From Halocynthiibacter styelae (GTDB lineage: Bacteria > Pseudomonadota > Alphaproteobacteria > Rhodobacterales > Rhodobacteraceae), in assembly GCF_016123485.1 (NCBI RefSeq), contig NZ_JADCKQ010000002.1:310001-374000 (forward strand): 64,000 nucleotides of DNA, written 5' to 3'. Shown here piece by piece: positions 11,332 through 63,998 of the stretch; the first letter of the stretch is position 1; the number at the start of each line of letters is the position of its first letter. A program made the translations under genes and the position numbers. Below the pieces are notes generated by a model. That model was not told the DNA's origin. It saw only the letters and a list, made by a program, of their open reading frames with translations, and did not search any database.

Positions 11332-11710
11332 ACTCACCGCCCTTACCCTCGCCGCCATCTTGCAGATGTGCCAGTTCGGCGCTTACGCATGGACTGCCAA
11401 CAAAGAGCTTGGCAAATCCTACACCATGGGCAACCGCGACGAGGAAGCCAGACCAAGCCAACTTCTGGGCCGCCACAAACGCGCGCTCAACAACCACTTC
11501 GAAGGGCTGATCTTCTTCACCATCGCCGCCCTGGTCGTACATCTTAGCTTCGCCTCAAACCCGGTCACCCAGGCCTGCGCTGGCCTGTACCTCGGCGCGC
11601 GCATCCTCTATGTGCCCGCTTATGTCCTGGGCCTGACACCCGCCCGCTCTATCATCTGGGGTGTCGGATTCCTGGCAACCCTCATCATGCTGATCGCAGC
11701 TCTCTTATGA
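11321..11710 (+). CDS. MAPEG family membrane protein
   Basis: A 129-residue integral membrane protein of the MAPEG family (eicosanoid and glutathione metabolism superfamily). The evidence is four hydrophobic helices with the conserved N-R-x-x-A-x-x-N-x-x-E pattern, seen here as GRHKRALNNHFEGLIFF, and the RILYVPAY segment. The bacterial role of this subgroup is not defined. It is a common neighbour of lpd in this group of bacteria as far as I recall, but that link is not proven by this sequence. Confidence 0.85.
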   Translation: MTTELTALTLAAILQMCQFGAYAWTANKELGKSYTMGNRDEEARPSQLLGRHKRALNNHFEGLIFFTIAALVVHLSFASNPVTQACAGLYLGARILYVPAYVLGLTPARSIIWGVGFLATLIMLIAALL

Positions 11711-11789: not shown

Positions 11790-11833
11790 TATGCATAGTA
11801 TATGCATAACTTGTGCATACTATGTGCATCCCC
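11790..11833 (+). promoter_or_regulatory. array of four 11-bp-phased TGCA boxes before lpd
   Basis: Four boxes begin at 11790, 11801, 11812 and 11823, exactly 11 bases apart: TATGCATAGTA, TATGCATAACT, TGTGCATACTA, TGTGCATCCCC. All sit on one face of the helix. The array ends about 25 bases before the lpd ATG. Related arrays occur at 48890-48933, 54650-54688 and 55086-55124. This suggests a cooperative DNA-binding regulator; which one is unknown. Confidence 0.7.
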
Positions 11834-11857: not shown

Positions 11858-13246
11858 ATGGCATCATATGACGTAATCATTATCGGCGGCGGCCCTGGCG
11901 GCTATGTTTCCGCAATCCGCTGCGCACAGCTTGGTCTGAAGACCGCTTGTGTTGAAGGCCGCGAAACCCTTGGCGGCACCTGCCTGAACGTGGGCTGCAT
12001 CCCGTCCAAGGCGCTGCTGCATGCCTCCCATTCCTACCACGAAGCCACCCATAACTTCACCAAGATGGGCCTGATGGGCAAATCCCCGTCCATCGACTGG
12101 AAACAGATGCTGTCCTATAAGGATGACGTCATCGGTCAGAACACCAAAGGCATCGAATTTCTGTTCAAAAAGAACAAGGTAGACTGGTTGAAAGGCTGGG
12201 GTTCTATCCCTGAAGCCGGCAAAGTCAAAGTCGGCGATGAAGTCCATGACGCAAAGAATATCGTCATTGCGACGGGCTCTGAAGCCGCATCCCTGCCGGG
12301 GATTGAGATTGACGAAAAGATCGTCGTGACCTCTACCGGTGCGCTGGAGCTTGGCAAGATCCCGAAGAAAATGGTTGTCATCGGCGCAGGCGTTATCGGC
12401 CTGGAAATGGGTTCCGTTTACGCCCGCCTGGGCGCTGAGGTGACCGTAGTTGAATTCATGGACAACGTCTGCCCCGGCATGGATCTGGACGTCTCCAAGA
12501 CCTTCGCACGCACCCTGAAAAAACAAGGGCTTAAGTTTGTAATGGGCGCTGCGGTTCAATCCGTTGAGACCAACAAAACCAAAGCAAAAGTGCACTACAA
12601 GCTGAAGAAAAACGACAAGGAAGACATGCTGGAAGCCGACGTCGTTCTGGTCGCCACCGGCCGTAAACCTTTCACTGATGGTCTGGGTCTGGATGCGCTT
12701 GGTGTTGCTCTGACCCCACGCGGTCAGGTCGCAACAAATGATCACTGGGCGACCAATGTGCCGGGCATCTACGCCATTGGTGACGCGATTGAGGGTCCGA
12801 TGCTGGCCCACAAAGCAGAAGACGAAGGCATGGCAGTCGCCGAAGTCATCGCAGGCAAAAAAGGCCACGTAAATTACGGGGTTATCCCCGGTGTGGTTTA
12901 CACCGCACCTGAGGTTGCAACCGTTGGTAAGACCGAAGAACAGCTGAAAGAAGAAGGCCGCGCCTATAAAATTGGCAAGTTTTCCTTCATGGGCAATGGT
13001 CGTGCCAAAGCCATGTTCGCGGGCGACGGTTTCGTGAAACTGCTGGTGGATGCGGAAACAGACCGCATCCTTGGCGGTCATATCCTTGGTCCACAAGCTG
13101 GCGAGATGATCCACGAGATCTGCGTTGCGATGGAATTCGGTGCATCTGCCGAAGACATCGCCCTGACCTGCCACGCGCATCCAACTTGTTCAGAAGCCGT
13201 ACGCGAAGCGGCCCTGGCCTGTGGCGATGGTGCAATCCACGCATAA
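11858..13246 (+). CDS. lpd: dihydrolipoyl dehydrogenase, E3 component
   Basis: Lpd re-oxidises the dihydrolipoyl arm with FAD and NAD+ for the 2-oxoglutarate dehydrogenase complex. The 462-residue product has the FAD-binding GGGPGGY motif (residues 10-16), the redox disulfide [13 protein letters not shown] (Cys42 and Cys47), the NAD-binding [12 protein letters not shown], and the C-terminal HAHPTCSE with the active-site His and Glu. ATG 11858 is chosen because AGGAGA lies 10 bases upstream and the FAD motif follows at the normal distance. It may have its own promoter because of the box array just upstream. Confidence 0.97.
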
Positions 13247-13253
13247 AACACTT

Positions 13254-13282
13254 CGGGGGAAGGAATTCCTGACCTTCCCCCG
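13254..13282 (+). terminator. intrinsic terminator of lpd
   Basis: A perfect 10-bp stem (CGGGGGAAGG with CCTTCCCCCG, loop AATTCCTGA) starts 8 bases after the lpd stop and is followed by ATTTCATTT. This closes the suc-lpd operon. Confidence 0.8.
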
Positions 13283-13354
13283 ATTTCATTTCTACGCCAA
13301 CGAAGACCTGTCCGGGGCACACCCGGTTTTGTTACACAGTTACAGGTGATCGAT

Positions 13355-13647
13355 ATGCGTCTTATTCTCGCAATTTCCCTTACTGCAGTGCTGCAGCTCT
13401 TCTCCACAACCAACGCAGAGGCCCGTGGTCTGATCCTTTAAGGAAGTCAGGATAAGCTTCACTTTGTTGAGCAAACCCGCATCTGAAAGCGATTTATCTC
13501 GTCGCAATGTCTGATGGCAAATTCGGCGCGGATGAACAGAAATTCATCGGGCTTCTGATGATCGATCTGGGCCTGAGCCCGGAGATGCTGGATGATATCA
13601 TTTCAGAAGTGAATGGCGGCACGCCAGACACAAAAGAAACTGCATAA
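13355..13647 (+). pseudogene. decayed gene: signal peptide piece plus TerB-like piece
   Basis: A 28-codon ORF (13355-13441) encodes a signal peptide, MRLILAISLTAVLQLF and the cleavage region NAEARG, then stops at TAA. A second open stretch in another frame (about 13471-13647, ATG at 13507) encodes a segment YLVAMSDGKFGADEQKFIG that looks like the helical core of TerB-like proteins (A-x-S-D-G-x-F-x-x-x-E). Neither piece is a full protein. The likely history is a deletion or frameshift that joined or broke two small genes. The short 46-residue downstream ORF could still be expressed; this cannot be told from sequence. Confidence 0.5.
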
Positions 13648-13650
13648 AGC

Positions 13651-13678
13651 AAAGGGCCGGGAAATTCTCCGGCCCTTT
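13651..13678. terminator. bidirectional terminator between the remnant and yaaA
   Basis: The stem AAAGGGCCGG / CCGGCCCTTT (10 bp, 8-base loop) lies four bases after the yaaA stop on the minus strand and just after the TerB-like remnant on the plus strand. A and T at the stem ends serve both directions. Confidence 0.75.
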
Positions 13679-13682
13679 CCGT

Positions 13683-14450
13683 TCAGGCCGCCTGCACGCG
13701 GGAAAAGACCCATTTGTCATCTGAAGACAGGTCCGCACGGAAGCCATAGCCGTCGGTGTTGAAATCCTTCAGACCTTCGACATGATCCACCCGGTTTTCG
13801 ACCATATAACGTGCCATCGCCCCGCGGGCACGTTTGGCATAGAAGCCGACCATCTTCAGTTCATTGCCTTTTTCTTCCTTGAATTCCGGCGTGATGACAC
13901 GGGACTTCATGGTTTTGGCACTGGCTGCTTTGAAATATTCATTGGACGCCAGGTTGATCACCGCATCCCCACCAGACGCCTGATCCAGAGCTTTGCCAAG
14001 GCGGGTGCCCCAGTAGGCGTACAGGTTCTTGCCTTCCTTATTCTCAAGCCGGCTGCCCATTTCCAGGCGGTAAGGCTGCATCAGATCAAGCGGGCGCAGC
14101 ACACCATACAGGCCAGACATAATGCGCACGTGATCCTGGGCGTAAGCCAGCTGATCCGCATCCAGATCCCAGGCCTGAAAGCCCTGATAGGTATCCCCTG
14201 TAAAGGCCAGAGCTGCCTGTTTGGCATTCTCTGCTGTTGAAGCTTTCGCGAAGGTTTTGAAACGGTTCACATTCAGCTGTGCCAGATCTTCGCTGATCTT
14301 CATCAGCTTACGCAGATCTTCTACTGTCAGCCTTTTTGCGATCTGCACAAGGCGGTTTGCGTCGGTCTGAAAGTCCGGCATGCTGTATGCCGTGCCCTCA
14401 GGTGCGGGATTGAAATCGAGGCTTTTGGCGGGGGAAAGAACGGCGAGCAT
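13683..14450 (-). CDS. yaaA: peroxide stress protein YaaA
   Basis: YaaA (DUF328) limits free iron and oxidative DNA damage during peroxide stress in E. coli, where it was also shown to bind DNA. The 255-residue product begins with MLAVLSPAKSLDF, the family signature, and has QLNVNRFKTF and the central FTGDTYQGF and SGLYGVLRPLDLMQPYRLEMG motifs. Length matches the family. It is a single-gene unit with its own terminator and is oriented away from the cobalamin genes' start, so it is not part of that operon. Confidence 0.95.
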   Translation of the reverse strand: MLAVLSPAKSLDFNPAPEGTAYSMPDFQTDANRLVQIAKRLTVEDLRKLMKISEDLAQLNVNRFKTFAKASTAENAKQAALAFTGDTYQGFQAWDLDADQLAYAQDHVRIMSGLYGVLRPLDLMQPYRLEMGSRLENKEGKNLYAYWGTRLGKALDQASGGDAVINLASNEYFKAASAKTMKSRVITPEFKEEKGNELKMVGFYAKRARGAMARYMVENRVDHVEGLKDFNTDGYGFRADLSSDDKWVFSRVQAA

Positions 14451-16315: not shown

Positions 16316-17062
16316 TCATCCACGCTCAAGGATATAAATATCCATGATCCAGCCGTGGTCGTCTTTGGCGCGTTGCCGTGTTTCGGTGATCTTCTGTGCA
16401 ACTTCGGTCAGTGGACCGGAAATCGTGATTTCATTGGGCATGCCAACAAAGCCGCCCCACCAGATGTGAATGCCTTCAGGTTCCAGCGTCTGAAAGGCGC
16501 AATGCCCGTCCAGCATGATCACCAGGCGGTCCGCATCCGCAGGCCAGCCGTGATCGCGCAGTTGCCGTCCGGTTGTCACCTGAAACGCCCCGCCCAGCGC
16601 GTTCAGCGGGATCTGATGCGCGGCTGTCAGCCCCTGCATCGAGGTGATCCCCGGCACGACGTTCAGTTGCAGATCGACCCGTTTTGACACACGTTCTGCA
16701 ATGCGCAGGGTGCTGTCATAAAGCGACGGATCCCCCCAGACCAAAAGCGCCACATTCTGCACCCCGGGGCGGGCATTGATTTCAGTCATCCAGCAATCCG
16801 CGATCGCATCATGCCAGTGGTTCACGCGGTCAATGTAGTCAGTGATCACTGGGTCACGGACAGGCAGGGTAAATTCGGCGATTTCAACATCACGGGTCAG
16901 GACATCGGCACAGATATCCTGACGCAGTTGCGCCAGATCGGCCTTTTCGTCGCCCTTATGTGGGATCAGGATCAGATCAGCTGCATTCAGTGCTTTAACA
17001 GCCTGCAGCGTCAGGTGATCCGGGTTGCCCGTGCCTATGCCGATCAGTTGCAGCGTAATCAC
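16316..17062 (-). CDS. cobF: precorrin-6A synthase (deacetylating)
   Basis: CobF methylates C-1 of precorrin-5 with loss of acetate, using SAM, and marks the aerobic cobalamin route. The 248-residue protein begins with ITLQLIGIGTGNPDHLTLQA, the SAM-dependent tetrapyrrole methylase signature, and contains LLVWGDPSLYDST and VVPGITSMQGL. Its start overlaps the cobA stop by four bases. Intact and of normal length. Confidence 0.94.
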   Translation of the reverse strand: MITLQLIGIGTGNPDHLTLQAVKALNAADLILIPHKGDEKADLAQLRQDICADVLTRDVEIAEFTLPVRDPVITDYIDRVNHWHDAIADCWMTEINARPGVQNVALLVWGDPSLYDSTLRIAERVSKRVDLQLNVVPGITSMQGLTAAHQIPLNALGGAFQVTTGRQLRDHGWPADADRLVIMLDGHCAFQTLEPEGIHIWWGGFVGMPNEITISGPLTEVAQKITETRQRAKDDHGWIMDIYILERG

Positions 17063-17781
17063 AGATCTGCTCCGTAAAGCGGACCAACAAGGATCATCGC
17101 AGGGCCGTCGACCTTTGCCTCGGCCAGGCTTTTGGCGAGTTCTGCAACGGTGGAGCGAATAATGTTCTGGTTCGGATGCGATACATTTTCCGCCAGCATC
17201 GCTGGTGTATCACCCGGCATTCCTGCCGTCATCAACTTGGCTGCAAGGCCCGGGAAGGTGCGTTTGCCCATGAAGATCGCCGTGGTCGCATCCGGATCCG
17301 CAAGCGCTGGCAGGTTGATGTCTTCCGGCAACTCACCCGTCAGGGCATGCCCCGTCACGAATTGAACGCGACGGGATTTCTCACGCCGGGTCATCGGGAT
17401 TTTCGCTGCTGCCGCAGCGGCCATGGCAGACGTCACACCCGGCACAACTTCATAATCAAACCCTTCGGCAGTCAGGGCGACGATCTCTTCTTCCAGACGA
17501 CCAAACATGCCGCTGTCACCTGATTTCAGGCGTACAACTTTCTGGCCGGATTTTACGTAATCCACCAGAAGGCGGCTGATATGATCCTGACGCGGCGAGG
17601 CCCGGCCCGCACGTTTCCCGACCGAAATCAGGTCTGCATCCGGGTTCACATGTTCAAGGATCGGGCCGGAAGACAGATCATCATACAGAACAACATCCGC
17701 ATCCTGAAGACGCTTCACCGCTTTCAGTGTCAGCAGCTCAGGGTCACCGGGACCAGAGGACACAAAACTTACAAATCCCAT
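17059..17781 (-). CDS. cobA: uroporphyrinogen-III C-methyltransferase
   Basis: CobA (SUMT) adds two SAM-derived methyl groups to uroporphyrinogen III to give precorrin-2, the entry to the corrin route. The 240-residue product has the GPGDPELLTLKA N-terminal motif, VVRLKSGDSGMFGR and VVPGVTSAMAAAA. It is a stand-alone SUMT without the CysG siroheme domains. It overlaps the cobB stop/start by one base at its 5' end and cobF by four at its 3' end. Confidence 0.93.
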   Translation of the reverse strand: MGFVSFVSSGPGDPELLTLKAVKRLQDADVVLYDDLSSGPILEHVNPDADLISVGKRAGRASPRQDHISRLLVDYVKSGQKVVRLKSGDSGMFGRLEEEIVALTAEGFDYEVVPGVTSAMAAAAAAKIPMTRREKSRRVQFVTGHALTGELPEDINLPALADPDATTAIFMGKRTFPGLAAKLMTAGMPGDTPAMLAENVSHPNQNIIRSTVAELAKSLAEAKVDGPAMILVGPLYGADL

Positions 17782-19091
17782 TACATAGCCTCCGAAATCA
17801 GGTGGAAGAATGTGCCGGTGGCCAGCCCACGTTTTGATCCGGTTTCCGGCACCTCAGCCCCCGTGGCGTCCACAACCCGCGCCAGTGGTGCATCAGGCTG
17901 ATCCAGAATGGTGGAATAGTGGAATTCATGCCCAGCCAGTTCACGTCCGGCATCAAACGCACCGGTTGGCAGATTAAGCGTCGCGCGGCGATAGCCGAGG
18001 TGCATCTTACGTTTCTCGTAAGAGGTCACAAGGCCAAGCAGCCCCAGCATTTCATGGGCTGTACCTTCTTTATCCACAAGCTGCGCACCCATCGCCATAT
18101 AGCCCCCACATTCGCCGTGTACGGGTTTCTTCTCTGCAAAGGTCCGCATCTGCGCTTTGAAATTCGAAGCCGCCGCCAGTTTTCCGGCGTGTAATTCAGG
18201 ATACCCGCCAGGCAGCCAGGCAATATCAGCATCCATCGCAGGGCCTTCGTCTTTCAGGGGTGAGAACAGAGAAACCTGCGCGCCCTGCTGACGCCAGCCA
18301 TCCAGAAGGTGGGGGTAGACGAAGGAAAACGCCTCATCCCGAGCAAGCGCGATGTGTTGCGCCGGGGGCTTAATCACATGGGTACCACCTGCAGGCAGGG
18401 TTGTTTCCCCGGCAGCGGCCTGCAGGGCCTCAAGATCAATATGTTCACGGATAAAGACAGCCAGGTCTTCAAGTATCTTATGCAGTGTTTCCTGCTCTTC
18501 CGCCTGGACAAGACCAAGGTGGCGTTCGGGCAGCTCCACAGCGCCTTTGCGCGGCAGCGCGCCGAACACTTTGATGCCAACAGCATCCATACCAACCCGG
18601 ATCAGGCGTTCATGGCGCGGGCTTGCAACCTGGTTCAGGATCACTCCGGCAAAGGGCATATCCGGACGCATGGCGCGGAAGCCCATCGCCGTAGCTGCCG
18701 CAGATTGCGCCTGGCCGGAAACATTGATCACCAGCACAACAGGCCAGCCATTGCGTGCAGCAATATCTGCGCTGGCCCCGTTGCCTGCGGCCCCATCCGT
18801 GGCCACACCATCGTAAAGCCCCATAGACCCCTCGGCGATCATCAGATCGGCACCTTCACCACGCGTCACATGATGATTCAGCATCGCATCCGGCATCGAC
18901 CAGCTGTCAAGGTTGAAGCTGGGCAGGCCGGTTGCGGCGGTATGAAACGCCGGGTCGATATAATCAGGGCCGCATTTATAGGGTTGCACTTTCACACCCT
19001 GCTGGCGCAACGCATAAAGCAGACCCAAGGTCAGAGTGGTTTTACCAGTGCCCGACGCAGGGGCAGAGATCAGAAGGCCTTTAGGCAGCAT
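17781..19091 (-). CDS. cobB: hydrogenobyrinic acid a,c-diamide synthase
   Basis: CobB amidates the a and c side chains of hydrogenobyrinate with glutamine and ATP before cobalt insertion. The 436-residue protein has an N-terminal P-loop (APASGTGKTT, residues 10-19) and a C-terminal class I glutamine amidotransferase domain with the nucleophile motif HGECGGYMAMG. Family length is normal. It lies three bases after cobM and is co-directional with the rest of the cluster. Confidence 0.94.
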   Translation of the reverse strand: MLPKGLLISAPASGTGKTTLTLGLLYALRQQGVKVQPYKCGPDYIDPAFHTAATGLPSFNLDSWSMPDAMLNHHVTRGEGADLMIAEGSMGLYDGVATDGAAGNGASADIAARNGWPVVLVINVSGQAQSAAATAMGFRAMRPDMPFAGVILNQVASPRHERLIRVGMDAVGIKVFGALPRKGAVELPERHLGLVQAEEQETLHKILEDLAVFIREHIDLEALQAAAGETTLPAGGTHVIKPPAQHIALARDEAFSFVYPHLLDGWRQQGAQVSLFSPLKDEGPAMDADIAWLPGGYPELHAGKLAAASNFKAQMRTFAEKKPVHGECGGYMAMGAQLVDKEGTAHEMLGLLGLVTSYEKRKMHLGYRRATLNLPTGAFDAGRELAGHEFHYSTILDQPDAPLARVVDATGAEVPETGSKRGLATGTFFHLISEAM

Positions 19092-48889: not shown

Positions 48890-48933
48890 TGGCATGCACA
48901 ACATATGCATTTTCTATGCACATCTTATGCATA
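48890..48933 (-). promoter_or_regulatory. array of four 11-bp-phased TGCA boxes
   Basis: Read on the minus strand: TATGCATAAGA, TGTGCATAGAA, AATGCATATGT, TGTGCATGCCA, each 11 bases after the last. This is the same design and nearly the same sequence as the array before lpd (11790-11833). It lies about 175 bases upstream of the secreted protein gene at 48716 and faces it. The match in phase, number and core makes a shared regulator likely. Confidence 0.7.
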
Positions 48934-53353: not shown

Positions 53354-53543
53354 GATCAGTCTCCTCATTTGATTCGACGGAAAACCCGTCTTTGAGAGGA
53401 ACTTGCCGGGAACAGTCGGCGCTGTCGGTGATATTGTTACAAAGAACCCCGCTGCGGAAAACCTGAAGGCTGCGAAGCGCCTCCTGTCGGCATCACATGC
53501 GCAGTCACAAATTGGCCGCATTCGCTGGGTACCCACACACCCT

Positions 53544-54197
53544 ATGAAGAAATTTCTATTATTCCTGATTGTTGCCTCAGTCACATCAGGCGCCTGGCAG
53601 TACAAACTTCTGAGAACCGCGAACCAGCAACTTGTGGTCGCAGAACAGCGGGTTGCAGATGTCATTTCTGCCCAAGCCAACAGCGTTACCCTGGACGGTC
53701 TGACTGAACTGCGCAAACTGCCTCCGAATATCGGTGACGTTCCCAACCTCAGATATCTGAGTGCGCGCGACACCAATCTGAGCGATCTGTCCGGGTTGGA
53801 AGGAAACACAACGCTTGAACAGCTTGATGTGAATATGACGCGGGTTTCTGACCTCAGCCCCCTGGAGGGATTGCCCAATCTGAAACTGATTTATCTTCAT
53901 GACACCTGGGTTTCTGACATTTCGCCGCTTACAACGCTTCCTTCGCTGGAACGCCTTGATATTGGTAAGACACAGATCGAAACCCTTCTTCCAGTGACAG
54001 AGATCGAAAACCTGACCTGGCTGAACCTTTACAAAAGCCATGCCCTGGATGGGTCCGGGGACCATTTTGCGGCTTTGCAGGAACGCCCGTTTCTGGAACT
54101 GACAGGCGGGAGTACTTTTCGCCAGAATTATCAGCCGGGCTGGCAGTATAACGCCATGCAACGCCTGTCCCGCCTGAGAGAACTATTCGAAATCTGA
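53544..54197 (+). CDS. leucine-rich-repeat protein, membrane-anchored or secreted
   Basis: A 217-residue protein with an N-terminal hydrophobic signal or anchor (MKKFLLFLIVASVTSGAW), a short coiled stretch, then about five leucine-rich repeats of 22-23 residues (residues about 45-180) of the type LxxLxxLxxxxNLxxLxLxxTxVSDxSPL, as in bacterial internalin-like proteins. It probably forms a solenoid for protein binding. The start at 53544 is the ATG before the signal. An IS3 remnant lies just after it. Confidence 0.85.
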   Translation: MKKFLLFLIVASVTSGAWQYKLLRTANQQLVVAEQRVADVISAQANSVTLDGLTELRKLPPNIGDVPNLRYLSARDTNLSDLSGLEGNTTLEQLDVNMTRVSDLSPLEGLPNLKLIYLHDTWVSDISPLTTLPSLERLDIGKTQIETLLPVTEIENLTWLNLYKSHALDGSGDHFAALQERPFLELTGGSTFRQNYQPGWQYNAMQRLSRLRELFEI

Positions 54198-54390: not shown

Positions 54391-54831
54391 TCGAAACATG
54401 GAACTATACTTTTTCTCAGGAAACTCTGAATGTGAAACTGATAGAACCCTCTGGGCACGACGGAAGACAGTTGTATGAGGGGCAAACTCTGTGGACCTCA
54501 AACGGGCAGTTCTGGCCTGATCCTGCCGCAGAGAAACGAGCTTCTTTTGTTGATTATTTTGGCCGTGATTAAAGCGTATTTCTCGCCGGGCGCCATAGTG
54601 CTGTTCACCGCCTTGCAGTGCATTCAACCAGGCCGGGCTAAGTAAGATTTGCACAAAATCTGCACATCTTACTCAGGTCGTCTGCACATCTTCATGGGAA
54701 AACGCCGTAGGGAACGCGCCATACAACCCCGCCTGGATGAAACCAAACAGGTCAACCAGGCATCGGATCGTTCCCGAAATCGGTAACCCTGCGGCATATT
54801 ACGCCGCATGATAATTCAGAGAAGGTATAAA
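54391..54831. other. 441-base gap, phased TGCA boxes inside, no gene recognised
   Basis: ORFs on both strands here look like by-products: none has a family match, a good ribosome site or coding character I can support. A short plus-strand frame (54400-54573) lacks a start codon. The gap includes the TGCA box array at 54650-54688 and a hairpin TGCGGC/GCCGCA (54790-54808). Confidence 0.5.
54650..54688 (+). promoter_or_regulatory. phased TGCACA boxes before the SMP-like gene
   Basis: TGCACA begins at 54650, 54661 and 54683, which are 11 and 22 bases apart, so all three lie on one helix face (one phase position, 54672, is empty). The boxes lie about 145 bases before the ATG at 54832. The core and spacing resemble the arrays at 11790, 48890 and 55086. 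Confidence 0.5.
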
Positions 54832-54975
54832 ATGACCAAAAGAACCAGCCCAATGACCAAATCCGCAGCTGCTCGTATTCAAGCTGCCAGCGCGAAACAA
54901 ATTGAGGGAAAAGTGGAAAAAGACAGCCATGCAGCACGTGCCCAGCGCGCTGCCGCAAACCCAGCAAAGAAGTAA
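54832..54975 (+). CDS. small SMP-like alanine-rich protein
   Basis: A 47-residue hydrophilic protein rich in Ala, Lys and Arg with the segments KSAAARIQAASAKQ and HAARAQRAAANPAKK, which resemble the seed-maturation-protein (SMP) type repeats found in small bacterial proteins. GAAGG lies 9 bases before the ATG. A strong terminator follows. Function unknown; SMP-like proteins are linked to dormancy or stress in plants only. Confidence 0.65.
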   Translation: MTKRTSPMTKSAAARIQAASAKQIEGKVEKDSHAARAQRAAANPAKK

Positions 54976-55031
54976 AACACAATATCAAAAGTTAATTTAA
55001 CCATTTTTCTGTTATTCTGCTGAAACTAAGT

Positions 55032-55067
55032 CCGCCAAAACACTGATTTGTTTTGGCGGGCTTTTTT
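55032..55067 (+). terminator. strong intrinsic terminator after the SMP-like gene
   Basis: CCGCCAAAAC/GTTTTGGCGG, a perfect 10-bp stem with an 8-base loop, followed by GGCTTTTTT. It separates the small gene from the exosortase operon. Confidence 0.9.
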
Positions 55068-55085: not shown

Positions 55086-55124
55086 TGCACAAATTCTGCA
55101 CAACCTGCACTGATCCTCTGCACT
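55086..55124 (+). promoter_or_regulatory. phased TGCAC boxes before the exosortase gene
   Basis: TGCACA at 55086 and 55097, TGCACT at 55106 and TGCACT at 55119. The first, second and fourth keep the 11-base phase (0, 11, 33); the third is two bases early. The array ends 21 bases before the exosortase ATG, as the lpd array ends about 25 bases before its ATG. It is the likely control site of the exosortase operon. Confidence 0.55.
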
Positions 55125-55144
55125 TTGTTTTGCGATCAGGTGAT

Positions 55145-56566
55145 ATGGAACAGACACATGATAAATTTCTCTGGATTGGCCTGACCACTGCATCAGTGAT
55201 GTTGGCCTTTGAGCCCCTGCGTTGGCTTGTCACAAGCTGGCGTGATCCGTCTTATCAATCTTACGGTGCAGTGTATTGTATCGTGCTTTTGGGACTGATT
55301 GGACTGTCGGTAAAAAGCGGCCCTGCCAGAGGCACATCTGTTGCCGGGCGCGTGTTCATGCTGTTTCTGGTCGCTGCGGTCATTCGGCTGGCGGGTCAAT
55401 TCCTGGCCATCAACATACTAAGCGCACTTGCCTTGTCTCTGGATGTCTTCGCGATTGCTGCGGTATTGCGGCTCGAAAGTCGCAAGATTGCGCTTTCGCC
55501 GGAATGGATGGCGATTTTCTTTCTGTTTGCTCTGCCTCTGGCACCGATTTTGCAGCGGGTTGCGGGGTTTCCCCTACAGATGATCTCAGCAGAGATTGCC
55601 TGCCAGATGATGTCTCCGGTGTTTGCAGATCTGATCTGTGAAGGTGTCCGGCTGCAATTGAACGGTGTTGATGTGATGGTGGACCTGCCCTGTTCAGGCG
55701 CCACGGGACTGTTGTTGCTGGTCAGCCTCTGGACGTTTCTGAACATCATTTACCGTCCATATTTCATGCGGGCGATATTGGGGGGTGTGATCATTGTCGG
55801 GCTGAGCATCATTGGGAATGCCTTGCGGATCAGCCTGTTGGCGGGGGGGCTTGGGCTTGGTGTCGACACGATGGAACCCATGCTTCACAGTGCAATCGGA
55901 TTGTTCACGCTGGTGTTCACGGCTGCGCCTGTTCTGATGTTCTATCGTCCGCAAACAAAACCCCTGCCCCAGATCAGAAAACCGGTCACAAACCTTCCAA
56001 AAGCACTGCGGGTACCGGTAACTGTGATGGCATTGCTGGCCGCCCTTGCAATTGTAAACGCCCCCAAGCGCCCCATGGATTTGTCTGCGCCTGTATCCCC
56101 CGCGCGCCTGCCGATGCAATTGCTTGGTGCACGGGCTAACCCCATTGCCCTGAGCCCTACAGAACAGCAGTATTTCACGGCTTACGGCGGGCACGCCCAG
56201 AAGGTGCAATACGGCCCGATGGGGATAAATGTTGTGCGCACAACTTCGCCTTTACGCCACCTTCACTCACCCGAGGCCTGTCTGTTGGGCATGGGATTTA
56301 GTGTGAAATTTCAGGGCACCACATATGACCCGCTTCCAACCTCTGTGTATGAGGCAACGAGCCCGGACGGGCAGATCTGGACTGTCGCTGTCAGCTTTGT
56401 TTCCGCTGACGGTCAGCAGACGGCCAGCGTTGGTGAAGCCGTCTGGAGCTGGCTCAATGGATCTTCCCGAAGCTGGCAGTCGATCCAGCGCGTCACCCTG
56501 AAATCCCTTCCGGAACAAGACCGGATTTCCTTTGAAAACGCTGCTTTGGCAGCCCTTGACCTGTAA
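55145..56566 (+). CDS. exosortase (XrtT-like) with C-terminal EpsI-type extension
   Basis: A 473-residue integral membrane cysteine transpeptidase of the exosortase family. About eight membrane helices fill residues 10-275. The catalytic triad is visible: Cys183 in DLPCSGATG, Arg228 in GNALRISLLAG and His248 in MLHSAIG. After about residue 300 a soluble domain follows with LRHLHSPEACLLGMGF, typical of EpsI/exosortase-linked regions. The ATG at 55145 (AGG seven bases before) is preferred to a TTG at 55130. The next gene is its single obvious substrate. The XrtT subtype is suggested from genome context, not certain. Confidence 0.9.
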   Translation: MEQTHDKFLWIGLTTASVMLAFEPLRWLVTSWRDPSYQSYGAVYCIVLLGLIGLSVKSGPARGTSVAGRVFMLFLVAAVIRLAGQFLAINILSALALSLDVFAIAAVLRLESRKIALSPEWMAIFFLFALPLAPILQRVAGFPLQMISAEIACQMMSPVFADLICEGVRLQLNGVDVMVDLPCSGATGLLLLVSLWTFLNIIYRPYFMRAILGGVIIVGLSIIGNALRISLLAGGLGLGVDTMEPMLHSAIGLFTLVFTAAPVLMFYRPQTKPLPQIRKPVTNLPKALRVPVTVMALLAALAIVNAPKRPMDLSAPVSPARLPMQLLGARANPIALSPTEQQYFTAYGGHAQKVQYGPMGINVVRTTSPLRHLHSPEACLLGMGFSVKFQGTTYDPLPTSVYEATSPDGQIWTVAVSFVSADGQQTASVGEAVWSWLNGSSRSWQSIQRVTLKSLPEQDRISFENAALAALDL

Positions 56567-56584
56567 CCAAACACGAGGACCATC

Positions 56585-58624
56585 ATGCGACTTTCTTTCC
56601 TTTTAATCCCCCTGTTTTCAATCAGCACTGTGACTGCGGCCTGGGCCACAGAAACCGAAGATATCGCCGGACGCGTCGTCGCGCAGGCGAACGGTGTATC
56701 TTACGATCTGCCCATGCTTGACAGCCAGATCAGCGTAAACATCGGAGGTGATATGGCCATCGTTGAGATCACCCAAAGCTTTCTCAACGATGGACAAATG
56801 CCACTGGAAGCAGAATATCTGTTTCCGCTGAACCAACATGCTGCAATTTACGGAATGGAAATGCGTGTCGGGGATGAGATCATTCAGGCTGTGATACGTG
56901 AAAAAGAGGTTGCGGTGGCCGAATTTGAACAGGCCGCGCAAGAGGGTAAAGCCGCAGCTTTGCTGACGCAACATCGCCCGAATATGTTCACGCAACGCAT
57001 CGCAAACCTCATGCCCGGGCAGCCGATAGATGTGACCCTTCGCTATGTGCAGATGGTCCCGAAAATTGATGCGCAATATGAATTGGTCATCCCCATGATC
57101 GTTGGGCCGCGTTATGAAGGCTATGACGTACAACTGGCAGATATCGCGCCTGACGACTTGCCGGATGACGCGCCAAAGCCTGCGAACAGCTGGACGATCA
57201 GTGATGTGCCCGCTTATCCTGCAGTGGCGGGTATTAACCTGCCTGACAGCTTTTCCCCCGAGCGTGTCTCGCTTGATCTGAACCTGATCAGCGGCCTGTC
57301 CATCGCAGGATTTGGCAGTGATACACATCCGCTGGCGATCCGGGAACATGACACAGGTTTAAACGCCCGGTTTGCCGGAGGTAAAGTTCTGGACAATCGC
57401 GATCTGGTGATCCGGTTCACACTTGGGGGGGAGACGCTTGAGGCTGCAAGCCTGTCACATCAGGATGACCGTGGTGGTTTTGTGTCGCTGATGATTGAAC
57501 CACCGGCTGCTCCGGACGATGCCATGATCACACCGCGTGAACTGGTGTTTGTGCTGGATACATCCGGGTCGATGGGCGGGGATCCCATGAACGCAAGCAA
57601 AGTGTTCATGGATGCGGCCCTTAAGAACCTGCGCCCTGATGACTATTTTCGCATCATTCCTTTTGCCAATACCGCGCAAAGGTTCTCCAACGGTTCAACA
57701 CAGGCAACGCGCCGTAACATTCGCCGGGCACGCAACTATGTTGATGGTCTGCTCACAGGTGGCGGCACCGAAATTGACAACGCTATTCGCACAGCTTTCA
57801 GCACCGAACAGCCTGCGGGCACCATGCGCATTGTTGTGTTTTTAAGCGATGGGTATATCGGGGACGAAGCCAGTGTTCTGCGCACCATTAACCAACAAAT
57901 TGGTGCAGCACGCATTTACGCCTTTGGTGTAGGCAACTCTGTGAACCGCTATTTGCTGGACGCCATGGCGGATGAAGGGCGTGGATATGCGCGTTATGTC
58001 AGCGTTGATGAAGATGCCACTGAGGTTGCAGAGGCTTTAGCCGATGATCTGAAATCGCCCCTGCTGACAGATATCACAATTGATTGGGGTGATCTTGAGG
58101 TTCACGGTGTCACGCCTGCACGCATTCCTGATCTGTTCGCAGGCAACAATCTGCGTATCTATGCCCGTCACAACGGGGCATCCGATGTGCGGGTCACGCT
58201 GAAAGGTCTGGTCAACGGTCATATGGCAGAAATGCCTGTTGATCTGACACTGACAGATACCGCAGATGAAGCGGCCTTGCCTTTGATCTGGGCGCGCAAC
58301 CGGATTTCAGATCTGACCCGCATGGTGGCGGTGGGATCAAATCCTGATGCGGCCGACAGGGAAATAACCGAATTGGGTCTGGAATTCTCGTTGCAAACGA
58401 AAAACACATCCTTCGTTGCTGTCTCTGAAACTGTTATGAACACCACAGATCAGACTGCAACCCCGGCAAGCGTTCCCCTGCCGCAGGTGTCAGGCATGTC
58501 AAATCAGGCCCAGGCCACATCGCAGGCTTTTGCAGGGTCTTCTTCGCCGGAGCCTGAAGCAATTCTGGGTTTTCTGATGCTGGCAGCAATGACCTTGTTA
58601 GGTTTCCGCCGGAGGATCGTATAA
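56585..58624 (+). CDS. VIT and VWA domain protein with PEP-CTERM-like sorting tail
   Basis: A 679-residue exported protein: signal peptide (residues 1-21, ending AWA), VIT domain (about 30-165, with EAEYLFPLNQHAAIYGMEM), then a von Willebrand A domain (about 317-480) with an intact MIDAS motif LDTSGSMGGD (Asp325). The C terminus has the three-part sorting signal: Ser/Pro-Glu-Pro (SSSPEPEA, PEP at 655-657), a hydrophobic helix (about 659-674) and RRR. This is the substrate pattern of an exosortase, encoded 18 bases upstream. It is likely anchored or released at the cell surface after cleavage and may bind partners through VWA. Confidence 0.93.
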   Translation: MRLSFLLIPLFSISTVTAAWATETEDIAGRVVAQANGVSYDLPMLDSQISVNIGGDMAIVEITQSFLNDGQMPLEAEYLFPLNQHAAIYGMEMRVGDEIIQAVIREKEVAVAEFEQAAQEGKAAALLTQHRPNMFTQRIANLMPGQPIDVTLRYVQMVPKIDAQYELVIPMIVGPRYEGYDVQLADIAPDDLPDDAPKPANSWTISDVPAYPAVAGINLPDSFSPERVSLDLNLISGLSIAGFGSDTHPLAIREHDTGLNARFAGGKVLDNRDLVIRFTLGGETLEAASLSHQDDRGGFVSLMIEPPAAPDDAMITPRELVFVLDTSGSMGGDPMNASKVFMDAALKNLRPDDYFRIIPFANTAQRFSNGSTQATRRNIRRARNYVDGLLTGGGTEIDNAIRTAFSTEQPAGTMRIVVFLSDGYIGDEASVLRTINQQIGAARIYAFGVGNSVNRYLLDAMADEGRGYARYVSVDEDATEVAEALADDLKSPLLTDITIDWGDLEVHGVTPARIPDLFAGNNLRIYARHNGASDVRVTLKGLVNGHMAEMPVDLTLTDTADEAALPLIWARNRISDLTRMVAVGSNPDAADREITELGLEFSLQTKNTSFVAVSETVMNTTDQTATPASVPLPQVSGMSNQAQATSQAFAGSSSPEPEAILGFLMLAAMTLLGFRRRIV

Positions 58625-59341
58625 ATGTTTAGCGCGCTGGACAAATCTGGCCTGTATTGCCAAACAGAAAGTATGAAAACACGTATCCTTATTGTCGATG
58701 ATGAACCCAAAATCCGCGTCAATGTGCGCATCGCTGCAGAGGCAGCTGGTTTTGAAACGATCGAAGCAGCAAATGGTCAGATTGCGTTGACCCATATCGG
58801 GCGCGAAAACATTGACCTTGTCGTGTTGGATATTGGTATGCCACAGATGGATGGGTTTGAATGTTGCCGACAGATCAGGGCAAAATCAAATGTGCCTATC
58901 CTGTTTCTGACCGCCCAGAATGATGAGATTGATCGTGTCTCAGGGTTTCAGCTGGGGGCGGATGATTTCGTCTCCAAACCTTTCAGCCCCCGCGAACTTG
59001 TTTTGCGCATCAAAGCCATTCTGGCACGGGGCAAACCACAGCAGACCCCATCATTGCAGCATGGCGTTCTCAGCATAGACAGCACGCGGCACAGTTGCCG
59101 TATCCTGGACCAGGAGTTAAATCTGACGGCAACTGAATTTTCATTACTGAAGATCCTGTTGTCGCGCCCGGAACATGTCCTGGATCGCAATCAACTGGCC
59201 GGAAATAACGCGCTTTCCGGCCGTACGATTGACAGTCATTTACGCAATATCCGCCACAAGGCTGCGGATCTGGGCTGCCACGATATTGTCGTGACAGTGC
59301 ATGGGGTCGGGGTGAAACTTGGGGCATGCAGTTGTGAATAA
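58625..59341 (+). CDS. OmpR-type response regulator of the exosortase locus
   Basis: A response regulator with a receiver domain (ILIVDDEPKIR, phospho-acceptor Asp in LVVLDIGMP, Lys in VSKPFSP) and a C-terminal winged helix (LTATEFSLLKILLSRPEHVLDRNQL, read in parts). ATG 58625 follows the stop of the VIT gene directly and has GGAGGA nine bases before; a second ATG at 58673 would give the usual short N terminus MKTRIL, with a weaker ribosome site. Product 238 or 222 residues. It is coupled to the kinase gene behind it. Confidence 0.92.
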   Translation: MFSALDKSGLYCQTESMKTRILIVDDEPKIRVNVRIAAEAAGFETIEAANGQIALTHIGRENIDLVVLDIGMPQMDGFECCRQIRAKSNVPILFLTAQNDEIDRVSGFQLGADDFVSKPFSPRELVLRIKAILARGKPQQTPSLQHGVLSIDSTRHSCRILDQELNLTATEFSLLKILLSRPEHVLDRNQLAGNNALSGRTIDSHLRNIRHKAADLGCHDIVVTVHGVGVKLGACSCE

Positions 59342-60869
59342 CATTCGCAAAAAATGGCGCCCGTCTATCGCGATGGTTATCGCCGCAGTCTGCGTGATTT
59401 TGATCTCAATTCCTCTGCTGGCAATGTTGTCAGTGCGTTTGACATCAAACCAGTTTGTCCGTGAAACAGAACAGTCCCTGATCCAGCAGGGGGCAATTTA
59501 TGCGCAGATTTATGCCCGGGAATTCAAACGGGAAGATGGCCCTCTGGTAGGCGTCGAGCTGACTGAAGATCAGAAGGAACATTGGAACGCCAACCTGCAT
59601 CCGGCCCGATCCCAACTGAATGTGCGCCAGGATGATATTGCCCCACCGCGCCCGGACGGCGATGTCATTGCGACGCCACCCGATCCGCGTCACCTGGCTG
59701 TAGCAGAGAACCTTATCAGCATTGCCCAGGGGGCCCGGAAGACCACCCTCGCAGGCATCGTTCTTCTTGATCATCATGGGCGAAATCTGAACACGGAAAC
59801 AGCCAGGTCGTTAGCGGCACTTCCCGAAGTTCAGACTGCATTGAACGGTGAGGTCGGTGCAATCCTGCGCGCGCGGACACAGGATTACGAACGACATGCA
59901 TTTTCTTCTTTAAGCCGCGACACAGGGTTTCGTGTGTTTGTGACCTATCCGGTTATTGTAAATGATCGTGTCATAGGCGCGATATACCTTTCGCGCACGC
60001 CCCTGAACCTTGGTAAGTTCCTGTTTGGCGAAAGATATGCGCTTTTGACGATGCTGATCGCGACTGTTTTATCGGCCACTTTTGTCGGGCTATTGCTGTT
60101 GCGGCTGATTTCACGGCCTGTTTATGCATTGCGTGACAGATCCCGTGCAATTGCTGCAGGAAAAAATCCAAATGCCGATCCTCTGCAACATTACGGCCTG
60201 CGGGAATTGGCGGATTTGGGGGACAGTGTGTCGACGATGGCAATGACCTTAATGCGGCGATCAAAAGAGATTGCCACCTATACGGATCACGTAACCCATG
60301 AACTGAAGTCGCCTGTCACCTCTGTGATTGGCGCGGCTGAACTTTTGCAGACGGACGGATTAAAATCGCAGGATCGCGATACGCTTTTGCAAAATATCGA
60401 AACCGAAAGCCAACGCATGAACCATCTTCTTGGACGTCTGCGCGAGATGACACGACTGCGGGGCAGCCTGGAAGGGGATCCCGGGAAGCTGGCACGGATG
60501 CTTCCTAACATCGATGGTTTGAAAGTGGTCACGCGGGCCGACCCTGAGGTTATCCTACCAATATCAGAAGAACACGGTGCAATGATTTTGCTTCATATGG
60601 GACAGAATGCATTGTCGCACGGTGCATCGGAATTAGAGCTGTCTTATGCGGATCGCATTCTGCATGTGTCTGACAATGGTGATGGCATCGCAGAAGGTGA
60701 CATCCCACGCGTCACAAATCCGTTTTTCACCACCCGGCGTGAACAAGGCGGGACTGGTATGGGCCTTGCTATTGTTTCCGCCATTCTTGAAAATTATGGT
60801 GCGACGATCACATGCCTTCCATGTAATACCGGCGCGTCGTTTGCGATCCACTTCTCAAATCAGAGTTAG
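59334..60869 (+). CDS. sensor histidine kinase of the exosortase locus
   Basis: A 511-residue membrane kinase: TM helix (about 10-34), a periplasmic sensor of about 190 residues, second TM (about 235-257), HAMP, HisKA with the phospho-acceptor in VTHELKSPVTS (His322), and HATPase with N box (MGQNALSHGA), DNGDGI and GGTGMGLAI. The start is GTG 59334, overlapping the response regulator stop; a TTG at 59319 is also possible. The layout matches 'proteobacterial dedicated sortase system' kinases, which accompany a sortase and a VIT/VWA target elsewhere. Confidence 0.92.
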   Translation: MNNIRKKWRPSIAMVIAAVCVILISIPLLAMLSVRLTSNQFVRETEQSLIQQGAIYAQIYAREFKREDGPLVGVELTEDQKEHWNANLHPARSQLNVRQDDIAPPRPDGDVIATPPDPRHLAVAENLISIAQGARKTTLAGIVLLDHHGRNLNTETARSLAALPEVQTALNGEVGAILRARTQDYERHAFSSLSRDTGFRVFVTYPVIVNDRVIGAIYLSRTPLNLGKFLFGERYALLTMLIATVLSATFVGLLLLRLISRPVYALRDRSRAIAAGKNPNADPLQHYGLRELADLGDSVSTMAMTLMRRSKEIATYTDHVTHELKSPVTSVIGAAELLQTDGLKSQDRDTLLQNIETESQRMNHLLGRLREMTRLRGSLEGDPGKLARMLPNIDGLKVVTRADPEVILPISEEHGAMILLHMGQNALSHGASELELSYADRILHVSDNGDGIAEGDIPRVTNPFFTTRREQGGTGMGLAIVSAILENYGATITCLPCNTGASFAIHFSNQS

Positions 60870-61201: not shown

Positions 61202-62092
61202 TTAAGGCGCAAACACCTCTCGCTCAGTGATCTTCTCAAATTCGGGCAGAAACTCTTCGTGGTGCAGACCAAGATATTTCACGATCCGTTCGTTGTTTAA
61301 CAATTTCGCGACGTAGCCACGTGCCAAAACAAGATCGAGATGATCGATCCCGTAGCTGTCCTCGACCAAACGAACTTCGCGCTCCAGATTTGAAGACTCG
61401 CGCTCCATCAGATCAAGTTGTTCCCGGGAAATACCTTTGAATTTTTTAGGCGTTGCCCCTGTGACCAGCTGACTATCGGGGGTCGCCGCCAGCAGCGATC
61501 GGGCATAATTTATGGTATATTTGTTCATAGTCATCATCAGTTGCGCGGCTTCAATCTGACGCATGGGTTTCATTTTCCTGAGGATCTGAAACCCCGTCAC
61601 AGCAATCTGCTTGTCCTTCAGCATTTCGGCAGCTTCACCGCAAATGCCATCTAGCAAACGCCTTTTCTGTTGAAGCGTTCTTATGTTCACATCCAACGCT
61701 TTTGCCAGGCGTTCTTCCGGCACACCAAGGGTCAGGGCGCGCAGGATCATTTTATGTTCCTGGATGGTCGCAAGTCGACTTATGCGCTTGTTATAAGTGA
61801 ACGCTTCATCATCGGTGGAAATGATACATTGTGTTTCAGTCGCCCCCTGGTTCTGCAACACGTCCAGCCGCAGATGCCCGTCAAGCAGTGTGTATTGGTC
61901 TGCGTTATTTGGATCACGCGTGACAACAAGAGGTTCGACCAACCCGATTTCCGCGACAGAGGCGGCGATACGTTTGTATTTGATTGTCGATTTTATCTGT
62001 GCGGACACAACATACAAGGGCGCGATCTGGTCAAATGGAATGCGTAGCAACTCACGTTCAAATGCAGCTGTAACAACCTGGTCATCATTCAT
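61202..62092 (-). CDS. RepB-type ParB-like partition protein
   Basis: A 296-residue protein of the ParB/RepB superfamily. The N-terminal ParB-like nuclease fold has IGLVEPLVVTRDPNNADQY and LLDGHLRLDVL (the GHxR motif of ParB CTP/DNA-binding cores). A plasmid partition RepB C-terminal domain follows, with helix-turn-helix VPEERLAKALDVNIRTLQQKR. It overlaps the next ParB-like gene by four bases. On plasmids such proteins aid segregation; here it lies beside a recombinase in a mobile module. Confidence 0.85.
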   Translation of the reverse strand: MNDDQVVTAAFERELLRIPFDQIAPLYVVSAQIKSTIKYKRIAASVAEIGLVEPLVVTRDPNNADQYTLLDGHLRLDVLQNQGATETQCIISTDDEAFTYNKRISRLATIQEHKMILRALTLGVPEERLAKALDVNIRTLQQKRRLLDGICGEAAEMLKDKQIAVTGFQILRKMKPMRQIEAAQLMMTMNKYTINYARSLLAATPDSQLVTGATPKKFKGISREQLDLMERESSNLEREVRLVEDSYGIDHLDLVLARGYVAKLLNNERIVKYLGLHHEEFLPEFEKITEREVFAP

Positions 62093-62991
62093 GCCTTCGC
62101 CTCTTCAATATGGGTTAATCGATCCGCAATCGTCCTGGGAATATTGGCCAGCCCTTCTGCGCGCAGGAGCGTGACAAAGTTCTCGTCCGACAGGAGCGTT
62201 TTCAGCGATTGTGTGAGAAAGAGCATTTCGCTGCGCGTCGCCCCAGCTTTACGCAACAGGATTTTCTTCTTATCAACATCATTTTGATACGTCCGCAAAA
62301 GGGTTTCAACAGAGAGGTTTTTACGAACCCCTGGTTCAGAATTGCCGCGCCCTTTGCCATATTGCGCACGCGCCTCAACCAAACGCTTTGCGGCCATAAG
62401 GCGGCCTCCGCGCAAAACCTTGCTTTCATAGGCCTTACGCAACACGGTTTGCACGCCGATATCATCCGCTTCGGCAATATCAACGGCGACGCTTACGGGG
62501 ATTTTTCCACTTTCAACGGCACGCAACAGCCGATGTTCATGACTTTCCAAAAGGCGAATGACACCATGCACATATTTGACCGAAAGATGGGTTTTCGTCG
62601 CAATCTCACGTGTGGAATATCCACTGTCTTTGAGACGCTTGATATCCCGCAGTAAATCGAGCGAGCGATGCTGCCTGCGTGCCAGGTTTTCGACGAGGCT
62701 CATGACAAGACAGTCCTCAGAGCTTGCCGTGATCACAACAGCAGGGATCTTATCTTGTTTCAGAGCCTTGAAGGCTTCCAAACGCCCCTGGCCACAGACC
62801 AGTTCATATGCCAGCTCGCCGCTTGTTTCATTATTGCGCACTGCAACGGTGATAGGACGTTTAAGGCCAAGCTCAGCGATGTTTGCAACGATCTCTTCAA
62901 AGACCTTTTGATTGCGGATACGAGGATTGATCACCGTGATCGTATCCACTGCAATGAGTTCGGTGTGTTCTTTGGGCGTATCAGACATCAC
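62089..62991 (-). CDS. ParB N-terminal domain protein
   Basis: A 300-residue ParB-family protein. It has the core motifs LGLKRPITVAVRNN, LVCGQGRLEAFKAL and SLVENLARRQHRSLDLLRDI, then a helix-turn-helix (YSTREIATKTHLSVKYVHGVIRL). C-terminal part is helical. It overlaps the recombinase gene and the RepB-like gene by four bases each, so three proteins come from one transcript. The motif GxxR of the CTP-binding box is present. Confidence 0.87.
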   Translation of the reverse strand: MMSDTPKEHTELIAVDTITVINPRIRNQKVFEEIVANIAELGLKRPITVAVRNNETSGELAYELVCGQGRLEAFKALKQDKIPAVVITASSEDCLVMSLVENLARRQHRSLDLLRDIKRLKDSGYSTREIATKTHLSVKYVHGVIRLLESHEHRLLRAVESGKIPVSVAVDIAEADDIGVQTVLRKAYESKVLRGGRLMAAKRLVEARAQYGKGRGNSEPGVRKNLSVETLLRTYQNDVDKKKILLRKAGATRSEMLFLTQSLKTLLSDENFVTLLRAEGLANIPRTIADRLTHIEEAKA

Positions 62992-63998
62992 GCGACCTCC
63001 AGAATTGAAATACGCCTGGATAGGGCGAAGAAATGTTTGAGGCTATCAAGCCGAAAAGCGTCCAGCGACAGGCCGTTGCTTTCCGAAAGACGTATTTTCG
63101 GACGTGTCATATCGGCTGTCGGCAACAGATAATAATCCAGTGGTGTTTCGTTTGTCTGATCCATGCGCACAACGACAGTGATGTCAGGTAAAAGGCCTGT
63201 ATCCAGCCGAATGTTCCACCTATACGCACCAGCACGGGTTTGCGTACATCTGGCAATGACGACAGATGCGGAAAATTCATGATTGATGGTCAGAAGGTTT
63301 GTTTTTGTATCGAGTTCGACTTGCCCGCCAATCTGTTCGATCCCGCCAATGGTGCTCTCGACGATTTCCGCATGTATTCTTCGCAGCCGCTTGTTGATTT
63401 CAATGTATCGATAGTCCCGGTCTGGGGTGAAACCGACCAATTTATAAGCCCTCAGCAAGCTGCCGAACCTGCTTTGATACGCACCACTGGAGGGCAAGGC
63501 ACTGGCTTCATCGATAACAATGCCAGATAGAAAGCCATGCGCTTTGAGCGTACCCCGTAATCCATCCAGCATTTCTTCGTCAGAATAGCGCAGTGCTTTT
63601 GCAGCAAAAATAGCTTTGGCGGCGGCAAATAAACCTGTATCTACGATCGCTGCAAACGCGCCTTCGGACCGGACCCAATTGTCCGGATTGTTACGCACGT
63701 GATGCTTCTTCAGCTTGAAGGAACGGCGGTTCCAGATGTTGTTACCAATGTATTTCTCATTTGAGAGAATCTGACGCACCACTGACGGCGTCCAGTTGCG
63801 GCCCAGATCAGTCTTGATACCCTTTGCGTTCAATTCAGCGGCGATCATTGCCTCGGATTGACTGTCCTCTACAAAGCTGCGGAAAATCTTGTTAACCAGA
63901 GCGATTTCATCCACAGGCCCCGGTACGAGCACCACGCGATCCGTCTGAATGCTTTTATGTTCGCCTCTGGCTAATACACCTTTTTGGTTACCCGCCTC
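62988..63998 (-). CDS. large serine recombinase, C-terminal part, runs off the window
   Basis: The frame is open to the right edge; the visible 336 codons are the C-terminal half of a large serine recombinase. Visible pieces: VLARGEHKSIQTDRVVLVPGP, the recombinase domain with RNWTPSVVRQILSNEKYIGNNIWNR, and a C-terminal region of about 180 residues with no cysteine zinc ribbon evident. The catalytic serine domain lies outside. Such enzymes integrate or excise mobile elements; the two ParB-like proteins in its operon are its accessory partners. Confidence 0.87.
   Translation of the reverse strand, partial: EAGNQKGVLARGEHKSIQTDRVVLVPGPVDEIALVNKIFRSFVEDSQSEAMIAAELNAKGIKTDLGRNWTPSVVRQILSNEKYIGNNIWNRRSFKLKKHHVRNNPDNWVRSEGAFAAIVDTGLFAAAKAIFAAKALRYSDEEMLDGLRGTLKAHGFLSGIVIDEASALPSSGAYQSRFGSLLRAYKLVGFTPDRDYRYIEINKRLRRIHAEIVESTIGGIEQIGGQVELDTKTNLLTINHEFSASVVIARCTQTRAGAYRWNIRLDTGLLPDITVVVRMDQTNETPLDYYLLPTADMTRPKIRLSESNGLSLDAFRLDSLKHFFALSRRISILEVA

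Follow-up and report, generated by a model that had tools for sequence, protein, structure and literature searches.

The stretch of DNA analyzed here (the window) comprises 64,000 nucleotides of Halocynthiibacter styelae, a member of the Rhodobacteraceae (contig NZ_JADCKQ010000002.1, positions 310,001 to 374,000). Between positions 55086 and 60869 it carries a module of four genes, and their open reading frame (ORF) coordinates confirm that all lie co-directionally on the + strand, as an earlier note made from the sequence had claimed. The first gene, xrtT (55145-56566, +), encodes an exosortase T of 473 aa. The second (56585-58624, +) encodes a 679 aa protein with a VIT domain at about residues 47-154 (PF08487), a VWA domain at about residues 320-481 (PF00092; both Pfam) and a PEP-CTERM-type tail. 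It is followed by a CreB-like OmpR-type response regulator (58673-59341, +, alternative start 58625) with receiver and winged-helix domains, and by a CreC-like sensor histidine kinase with a GTG start (59334-60869, +) and HisKA and HATPase_c domains (Pfam in both cases). The position originally given as the start of the module, 55086, marks where a series of TGCAC repeats begins and is no gene start. The spacings of 18, 0 and -8 bases held for the first and the last, the value of 0 being obtained only with the ATG at 58625. The regulator probably begins at 58673 (MKTRILIVDDEP), the conserved start, which leaves 48 bases between target and regulator.

Exosortase T and its VIT/VWA target

The enzyme is a member of NF033770 (exosortase T), which it matches over almost its full length (673.1 bits against a cut-off of 250). 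Cys183, Arg228, and His248 stand in the translation at the positions claimed. All three are invariant across the 19 XrtT proteins aligned, and a C-terminal motif, PLRHLHxPxxCLxGxG, is likewise invariant at most of its positions. The predicted structure (pLDDT 83.8, pTM 0.80) had no fold match in the PDB at E 0.001 (best E 0.12), and no solved relative was found by sequence at E 1; a weak PsbP row appeared among these comparisons. In the locus L162, a gene of its own next to exosortase Q encodes a relative of the C-terminal domain (10985-11512, +; 47.4 bits to the XrtT profile). The C-terminal domain of XrtT has an EpsI-like motif, but the EpsI name was not adopted: an NCBIfam search at E 0.01 gave only XrtT and XrtO. 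XrtT had no match on plasmids at E 1e-20. Exosortase T is already a named enzyme family, and dedicated sorting is already known; NF033770 names only the enzyme, and we found no paper on exosortase T, its target, its regulator pair, or its promoter in the open-licence literature, which lacks most subscription journals.

XrtT was detected over the cut-off in ten of 394 genomes of the family and in four of 385 genomes of the class, H. styelae being counted in both. With nine loci from named genomes and one from a phylum search (L135), these make up 19 distinct XrtT loci, from which duplicates were dropped before counting (L079, L080, L081, and L084, which repeat L043, L038, L041, and L040). They include loci of cultured, non-pathogenic relatives, Litoreibacter roseus K6 (L040) and Actibacterium lipolyticum CECT 8621 (L043). 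The VIT/VWA gene adjoins xrtT in all 19, so that no relative was found with the exosortase and without its target, and the regulator and kinase lie close to xrtT in 18. Gene order was thus compared in relatives as the earlier note had proposed, and the layout recurs, which makes it more than chance. Its details vary: the order is regulator-kinase-xrtT-target in L077, at least 1.2 kb separate target and regulator in L087, and the kinase is cut by the contig end in L082. When 18 loci were compared all against all (L038, a near-copy of the window, was left out), the other clusters, judged from one example each, were frames overlapping the four genes or flanking genes present in at most four loci. 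In L039, from a metagenome-assembled genome, the kinase gene (12175-13713, +) is split into two ORFs.

An exosortase usually has many substrates, which is why the chemistry and purpose of these enzymes are hard to isolate. The proposal of a dedicated exosortase with one target is supported here. The H. styelae genome (3.72 Mb, listed as 100% complete) contains one exosortase match, at 31.8 bits and below the cut-off of the general exosortase model. The many PEP-CTERM proteins that the earlier note had suggested looking for elsewhere in this genome did not appear: with TIGR02595, a short and weak model whose cut-off was passed also in two of 14 control genomes, the VIT/VWA protein was the one match over the cut-off (18 bits against 16), the others remaining sub-threshold at 14.5, 12.1, and 11.4 bits. 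We also built a model of the XrtT tail from an alignment of 18 tails (A1, in which L135 is not included) and searched it in their 18 genomes. Exactly one strong match was obtained in each (59.6-84.7 bits), and on this the one-target claim holds; nothing further exceeded 16.6 bits, leaving a gap of more than 40 bits to the next best. The strong matches are the training rows themselves, and the result therefore consists in the absence of a second match. XrtT may of course have more substrates, with tails too unlike that of the VIT/VWA protein for detection. Short tails are indeed hard to detect, and the H. styelae genome holds weak matches of 11-15 bits, yet the gap of more than 40 bits in all 18 genomes and the adjacency of target and enzyme in 19 of 19 loci make further substrates highly improbable.

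The tail itself occupies residues 655-679 of the target (58547-58621, +), running from PEP to a terminal FRRRIV, and scores 75 bits with the XrtT-tail model; it counts 25 residues and not the 26 first reported. In A1 the tail consensus reads AYPxGFxGSSSPEP, after which come a hydrophobic stretch and arginines. Among solved structures, the target matches PARP4 (E 8.7e-29).

Near the XrtT locus L084, a second VWA protein is encoded (16561-17937, -), which combines a Gly-rich and a hydrophobic stretch with a basic end and matches TIGR03788 at 137.8 bits. These features possibly make up another sorting tail.

Sorting enzymes across the VIT/VWA family

The proteobacterial dedicated sortase system (TIGR03784, TIGR03785, TIGR03787, TIGR03788) likewise has one VIT/VWA target beside the sorting enzyme, sometimes with a two-component pair; it possesses a sortase and an LPXTG tail, whereas the module described here possesses an exosortase and a PEP tail. 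The target matches TIGR03788 at 443.5 bits, below the cut-off of 551.65. Genes of this VIT/VWA type are present in 16 of 394 family genomes (E 1e-30), namely the ten XrtT genomes and six with a TIGR03784-type sortase, which was found in all six at E 1e-39 or better and over the curated cut-off in two. In a sample of the phylum, the gene occurs in 43 of 398 genomes (E 1e-60). Loci were examined in 20 of these 43 (G986 was added later): a sortase is present in 15, XrtT in one, and exosortase Q, adjoining the gene, in three; in the last, no enzyme was found. The sortase model TIGR03784 was run on 31 genomes, and none of the six XrtT genomes among them matched; in H. styelae it had no match at E 0.001.

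In a quick tree of 38 targets, each enzyme corresponds to one clade, and the two exosortase clades group together at 98 (SH-aLRT). This tree contains 14 of the 19 XrtT targets and 18 of the 21 sortase targets and was obtained by a quick search with composition warnings for nine rows. One genome, G576, appeared to have an XrtT-type target without XrtT and was rejected, as a sortase adjoins one half of a target that is split across contigs. A distant VIT/VWA relative is encoded in L138 (G784; 6465-8636, -; 215 bits), where sortase, XrtT, and XrtQ were not found.

Other exosortase systems resemble the module to differing degrees. The exosortase-Q system likewise places an exosortase beside a PEP-tailed VIT/VWA gene, with an exosortase of a different family. 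An XrtN system is represented in NCBIfam by a model named sorted_by_XrtN (TIGR04477), whose proteins presumably carry a VIT domain; the model had no match in the H. styelae genome at E 10. In the classical PEP-CTERM/EpsH system with PrsK/PrsR, the targets are numerous, exopolysaccharide genes are present, and the regulator is of the sigma-54-interacting type (PMC1569441). It likewise combines an exosortase, PEP-CTERM, and a two-component pair; the module in the window differs by its one target and its OmpR-type regulator.

Dedicated sorting systems were defined in 2011, when the same protein family was reported with GlyGly-CTERM, LPXTG, or PEP-CTERM tails and differing enzymes, including a PEP-CTERM-tailed member with an exosortase in Verrucomicrobium spinosum (PMC3237569). 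Since three tail types were reported for the VIT/VWA family, it is in principle already known that the sorting enzyme can be exchanged. For these VIT/VWA systems, the sections of PMC3237569 covered here describe neither the regulator pair nor the promoter tag.

The two-component pair and the TGCAC repeats

The best NCBIfam match of the regulator is CreB (194.8 bits, cut-off 273) and that of the kinase is CreC (131.9 bits, cut-off 356). On the regulator model of the sortase system, TIGR03787, the former scores 131.1 bits against a cut-off of 335.7; the corresponding kinase model, TIGR03785 (cut-off 612.2), was not among the best 25 of 75 families, the 25th lying at about 39 bits. XrtT regulators form one clade (98/95, in a tree with all 18 of them) on an unresolved backbone, and XrtT kinases form another (100/99, in a tree with 12 of the 18), from which we conclude that the pair belongs to the module. 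In the kinase tree, the XrtT rows group with those of CreC and the sortase system at 92/90 and with those of CreC alone at 85/77, neither of them starred. Approximately unbiased (AU) tests rejected none of three alternative placements of the XrtT kinases, namely with the sortase-system kinases (p 0.312), PhoR (p 0.086), and BaeS (p 0.063). The predicted structure of the kinase (pLDDT 77.3, pTM 0.46) matched common kinase cores, in a comparison that hardly touched the sensor part.

These results bear on the claim of a layout copied from the dedicated sortase system. It stands for the target, which is homologous (TIGR03788, 443.5 bits), and is not supported for the pair, which fits the CreB and CreC models better. 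One may still picture the pair as a diverged copy of the sortase-system regulator and kinase, so that the module would be a sortase cassette in which the enzyme alone was exchanged. The homology of the targets, the 92/90 grouping, and the p value of 0.312 all agree with such an origin. We nevertheless find it distinctly unlikely: the regulator falls far below the cut-off of the sortase-system model and scores higher with CreB, an OmpR-type regulator lies near the target in only four of the 21 sortase loci examined, and neither the TGCAC tag of XrtT promoters nor the tag of CreB is present at the sortase targets (none of the 19 tested, from 19 of the 21 loci).

In an alignment of six XrtT regulators (A5), the regulator of the window (58673-59341, +) has about five residues fewer in its DNA-binding domain than the other five, and the L077 regulator is without one of those residues.

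Upstream of xrtT, TGCAC half-sites at 55086, 55097, and 55119 (offsets 0, 11, and 33), together with one at 55106, form an operator-like array (55086-55123, +). The TGCAC-N6-TGCAC pair is found upstream of xrtT in 13 of the 19 loci, and 11 of the 19 have the exact triple with its offsets of 0, 11, and 33. When the window and its near-copy L038 are left out, 11 of 17 promoters contain the pair, a count inflated by kinship among the loci, against a mean of 0.028 and a largest value of 2 in 500 dinucleotide shuffles; pairs with spacers of 3-5 and 7-11 were absent from all 17. The repeat-bearing loci include L077 and L087, whose XrtT shares only 39% and 43% identity with that of the window. Where the exact pair is missing, one-mismatch forms stand in its place in L076 and L078 (equalled by 0 and 1 of 200 shuffles), and what L083 and L135 contain is doubtful (equalled by 6 of 200 in each). 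A stricter form derived from the xrtT-promoter sites, TGCACN4YCTGCAC, gave 28 matches in the 19 XrtT genomes against 8 for the reversed pattern used as a control; 13 of the 28 lie at xrtT and 15 elsewhere, and in seven genomes the xrtT site is the sole match.

Taken together, we consider it probable that the four genes constitute a self-contained, self-regulated surface-display module, composed of one enzyme, one substrate, and its own CreBC-like switch. A number of observations weigh against this. The regulator and kinase fall below the CreB and CreC cut-offs given above, and in a simple hydropathy scan, which gave eight hydrophobic segments in XrtT and two in the kinase, the N-terminal segment of the target alone passed the threshold and its short tail stretch failed. 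At L078, neither a regulator nor a kinase lies within 4.2 kb downstream or 1.7 kb upstream. The exact pair is missing at xrtT in six of the 19 loci, two of which, L085 and L086, have nothing convincing in its place (46 and 136 of 200 shuffles as good), and no repeat was found ahead of the regulator genes of L077 and L087, which are placed separately. The sole strict match lies away from xrtT in G446 and G237, and the H. styelae genome has two distant strict matches, beside which the ORFs, judged from translations only, reveal no pattern. When one mismatch is tolerated, the window shows no enrichment of the pattern (9 against 8.4 expected), and no sigma-70-like site was found near xrtT on the + strand.

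Some of these observations would be expected if only the enzyme and target were dedicated to each other and the two-component pair, though encoded in the same operon, acted as a general envelope regulator with many other genes under its control. The repeats would then be only partly its own or would belong to another OmpR-type regulator. The two further matches in H. styelae, the 15 of 28 strict matches away from xrtT, and the six promoters without repeats point in this direction, as do tandem TGCAC/TGCAT half-sites with an 11-base period and another linker at 11802-11828 (-) and 48895-48932 (+), which are perhaps sites of another regulator. On the other hand, seven genomes have no strict match other than that at xrtT, and the pair, which falls into clades of its own, stays close to xrtT in all but one of the 19 loci. 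We judge a general regulator of this kind to be unlikely, and retain the self-regulated module as our preferred interpretation.

A second copy of the triple TGCAC repeat, present also in the close relative L038, lies at 54650-54687 (+). About 145 bases downstream of it is a small Lys/Ala-rich ORF of 47 codons (54832-54975, +). From its sequence, this copy may be a second site of the regulator, and the small ORF a second gene of its regulon.

CreB tags at exosortase-Q modules and a proposed mechanism

The published CreB tag is TTCACN6TTCAC (PMC4689548). It has the same 5-6-5 geometry as the xrtT repeats and differs from them in its bases (TTCAC vs TGCAC); none of the 17 XrtT promoters tested contains it. 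Four of five exosortase-Q loci do have the CreB tag, placed 111-169 bases before the start of the VIT/VWA gene (L136, where this start was set by homology, L139, L162, and L163, with L137 lacking it), where shuffles expect 0.008, and the same scan recovers the site directly upstream of creD in E. coli. The exosortase-Q set comprises L136, L139 with L164, L137, L162, and L163; the L163 exosortase scores below the XrtQ cut-off (208 vs 270 bits). Cre genes themselves are present at two of the five loci. L136 has the order CreB (304 bits), CreC (544 bits), VIT/VWA, XrtQ, with CreB and CreC over their cut-offs. In G1100, CreD (457 bits, over the cut-off) and the VIT/VWA gene are divergently oriented on either side of the tag, and CreB and CreC, both over their cut-offs, are encoded about 6 kb away. 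No Cre genes were found near XrtQ in L137, L162, and L163.

We found no paper combining CreBC and exosortase in the open-licence literature, which holds few subscription journals, and none that links an exosortase module to CreBC regulation. The new parts are the CreBC-like pair with its TGCAC tag at xrtT and the CreB tag at exosortase-Q modules, and they suggest such a link. Going further, the display of VIT/VWA proteins by exosortases could be the original business of CreBC-type systems; the XrtT and XrtQ modules would then be two branches of one surface-display regulon, and the envelope signal of CreBC would be the state of the displayed protein or of its sorting. We offer this tentatively and consider it doubtful.

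The module may operate as follows. The VIT/VWA protein would be exported, and its C-terminal PEP tail would keep it at the inner membrane. Comparative genomics shows its pairing with XrtT, of which it is the only substrate detected and which, by analogy with the exosortase family, would cleave the tail near PEP and transfer the protein to an anchor. The CreBC-like kinase and regulator are predicted to control the operon through the TGCAC-N6-TGCAC promoter repeats, the geometry of which is consistent with binding by the regulator. Finally, the kinase might read the state of the envelope or surface to which the displayed protein contributes, or else failed sorting; this step is speculative and the weakest of the scheme.

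With one enzyme, one substrate, and one switch in cultured marine bacteria, cleavage, anchoring, and regulation could each be tested by single-gene deletions, and the promoter repeat predicts a regulon. The likeness of TGCAC to the CreB tag, together with the genuine CreB tag at XrtQ operons, provides a lead on targets of CreBC-type systems beyond the species studied.

The operon is preceded by a leucine-rich-repeat (LRR) protein with internalin-like LRR matches (53403-54197, +) and by a terminator-like hairpin of 15 pairs with a T tail (55028-55063, +), from a scan in which hairpins were not enriched overall (8 vs 6.7 expected). Directly 3' of the operon lie what we take, from their translations, to be two ParB-like genes and a serine-recombinase-like gene (61202-63935, -).

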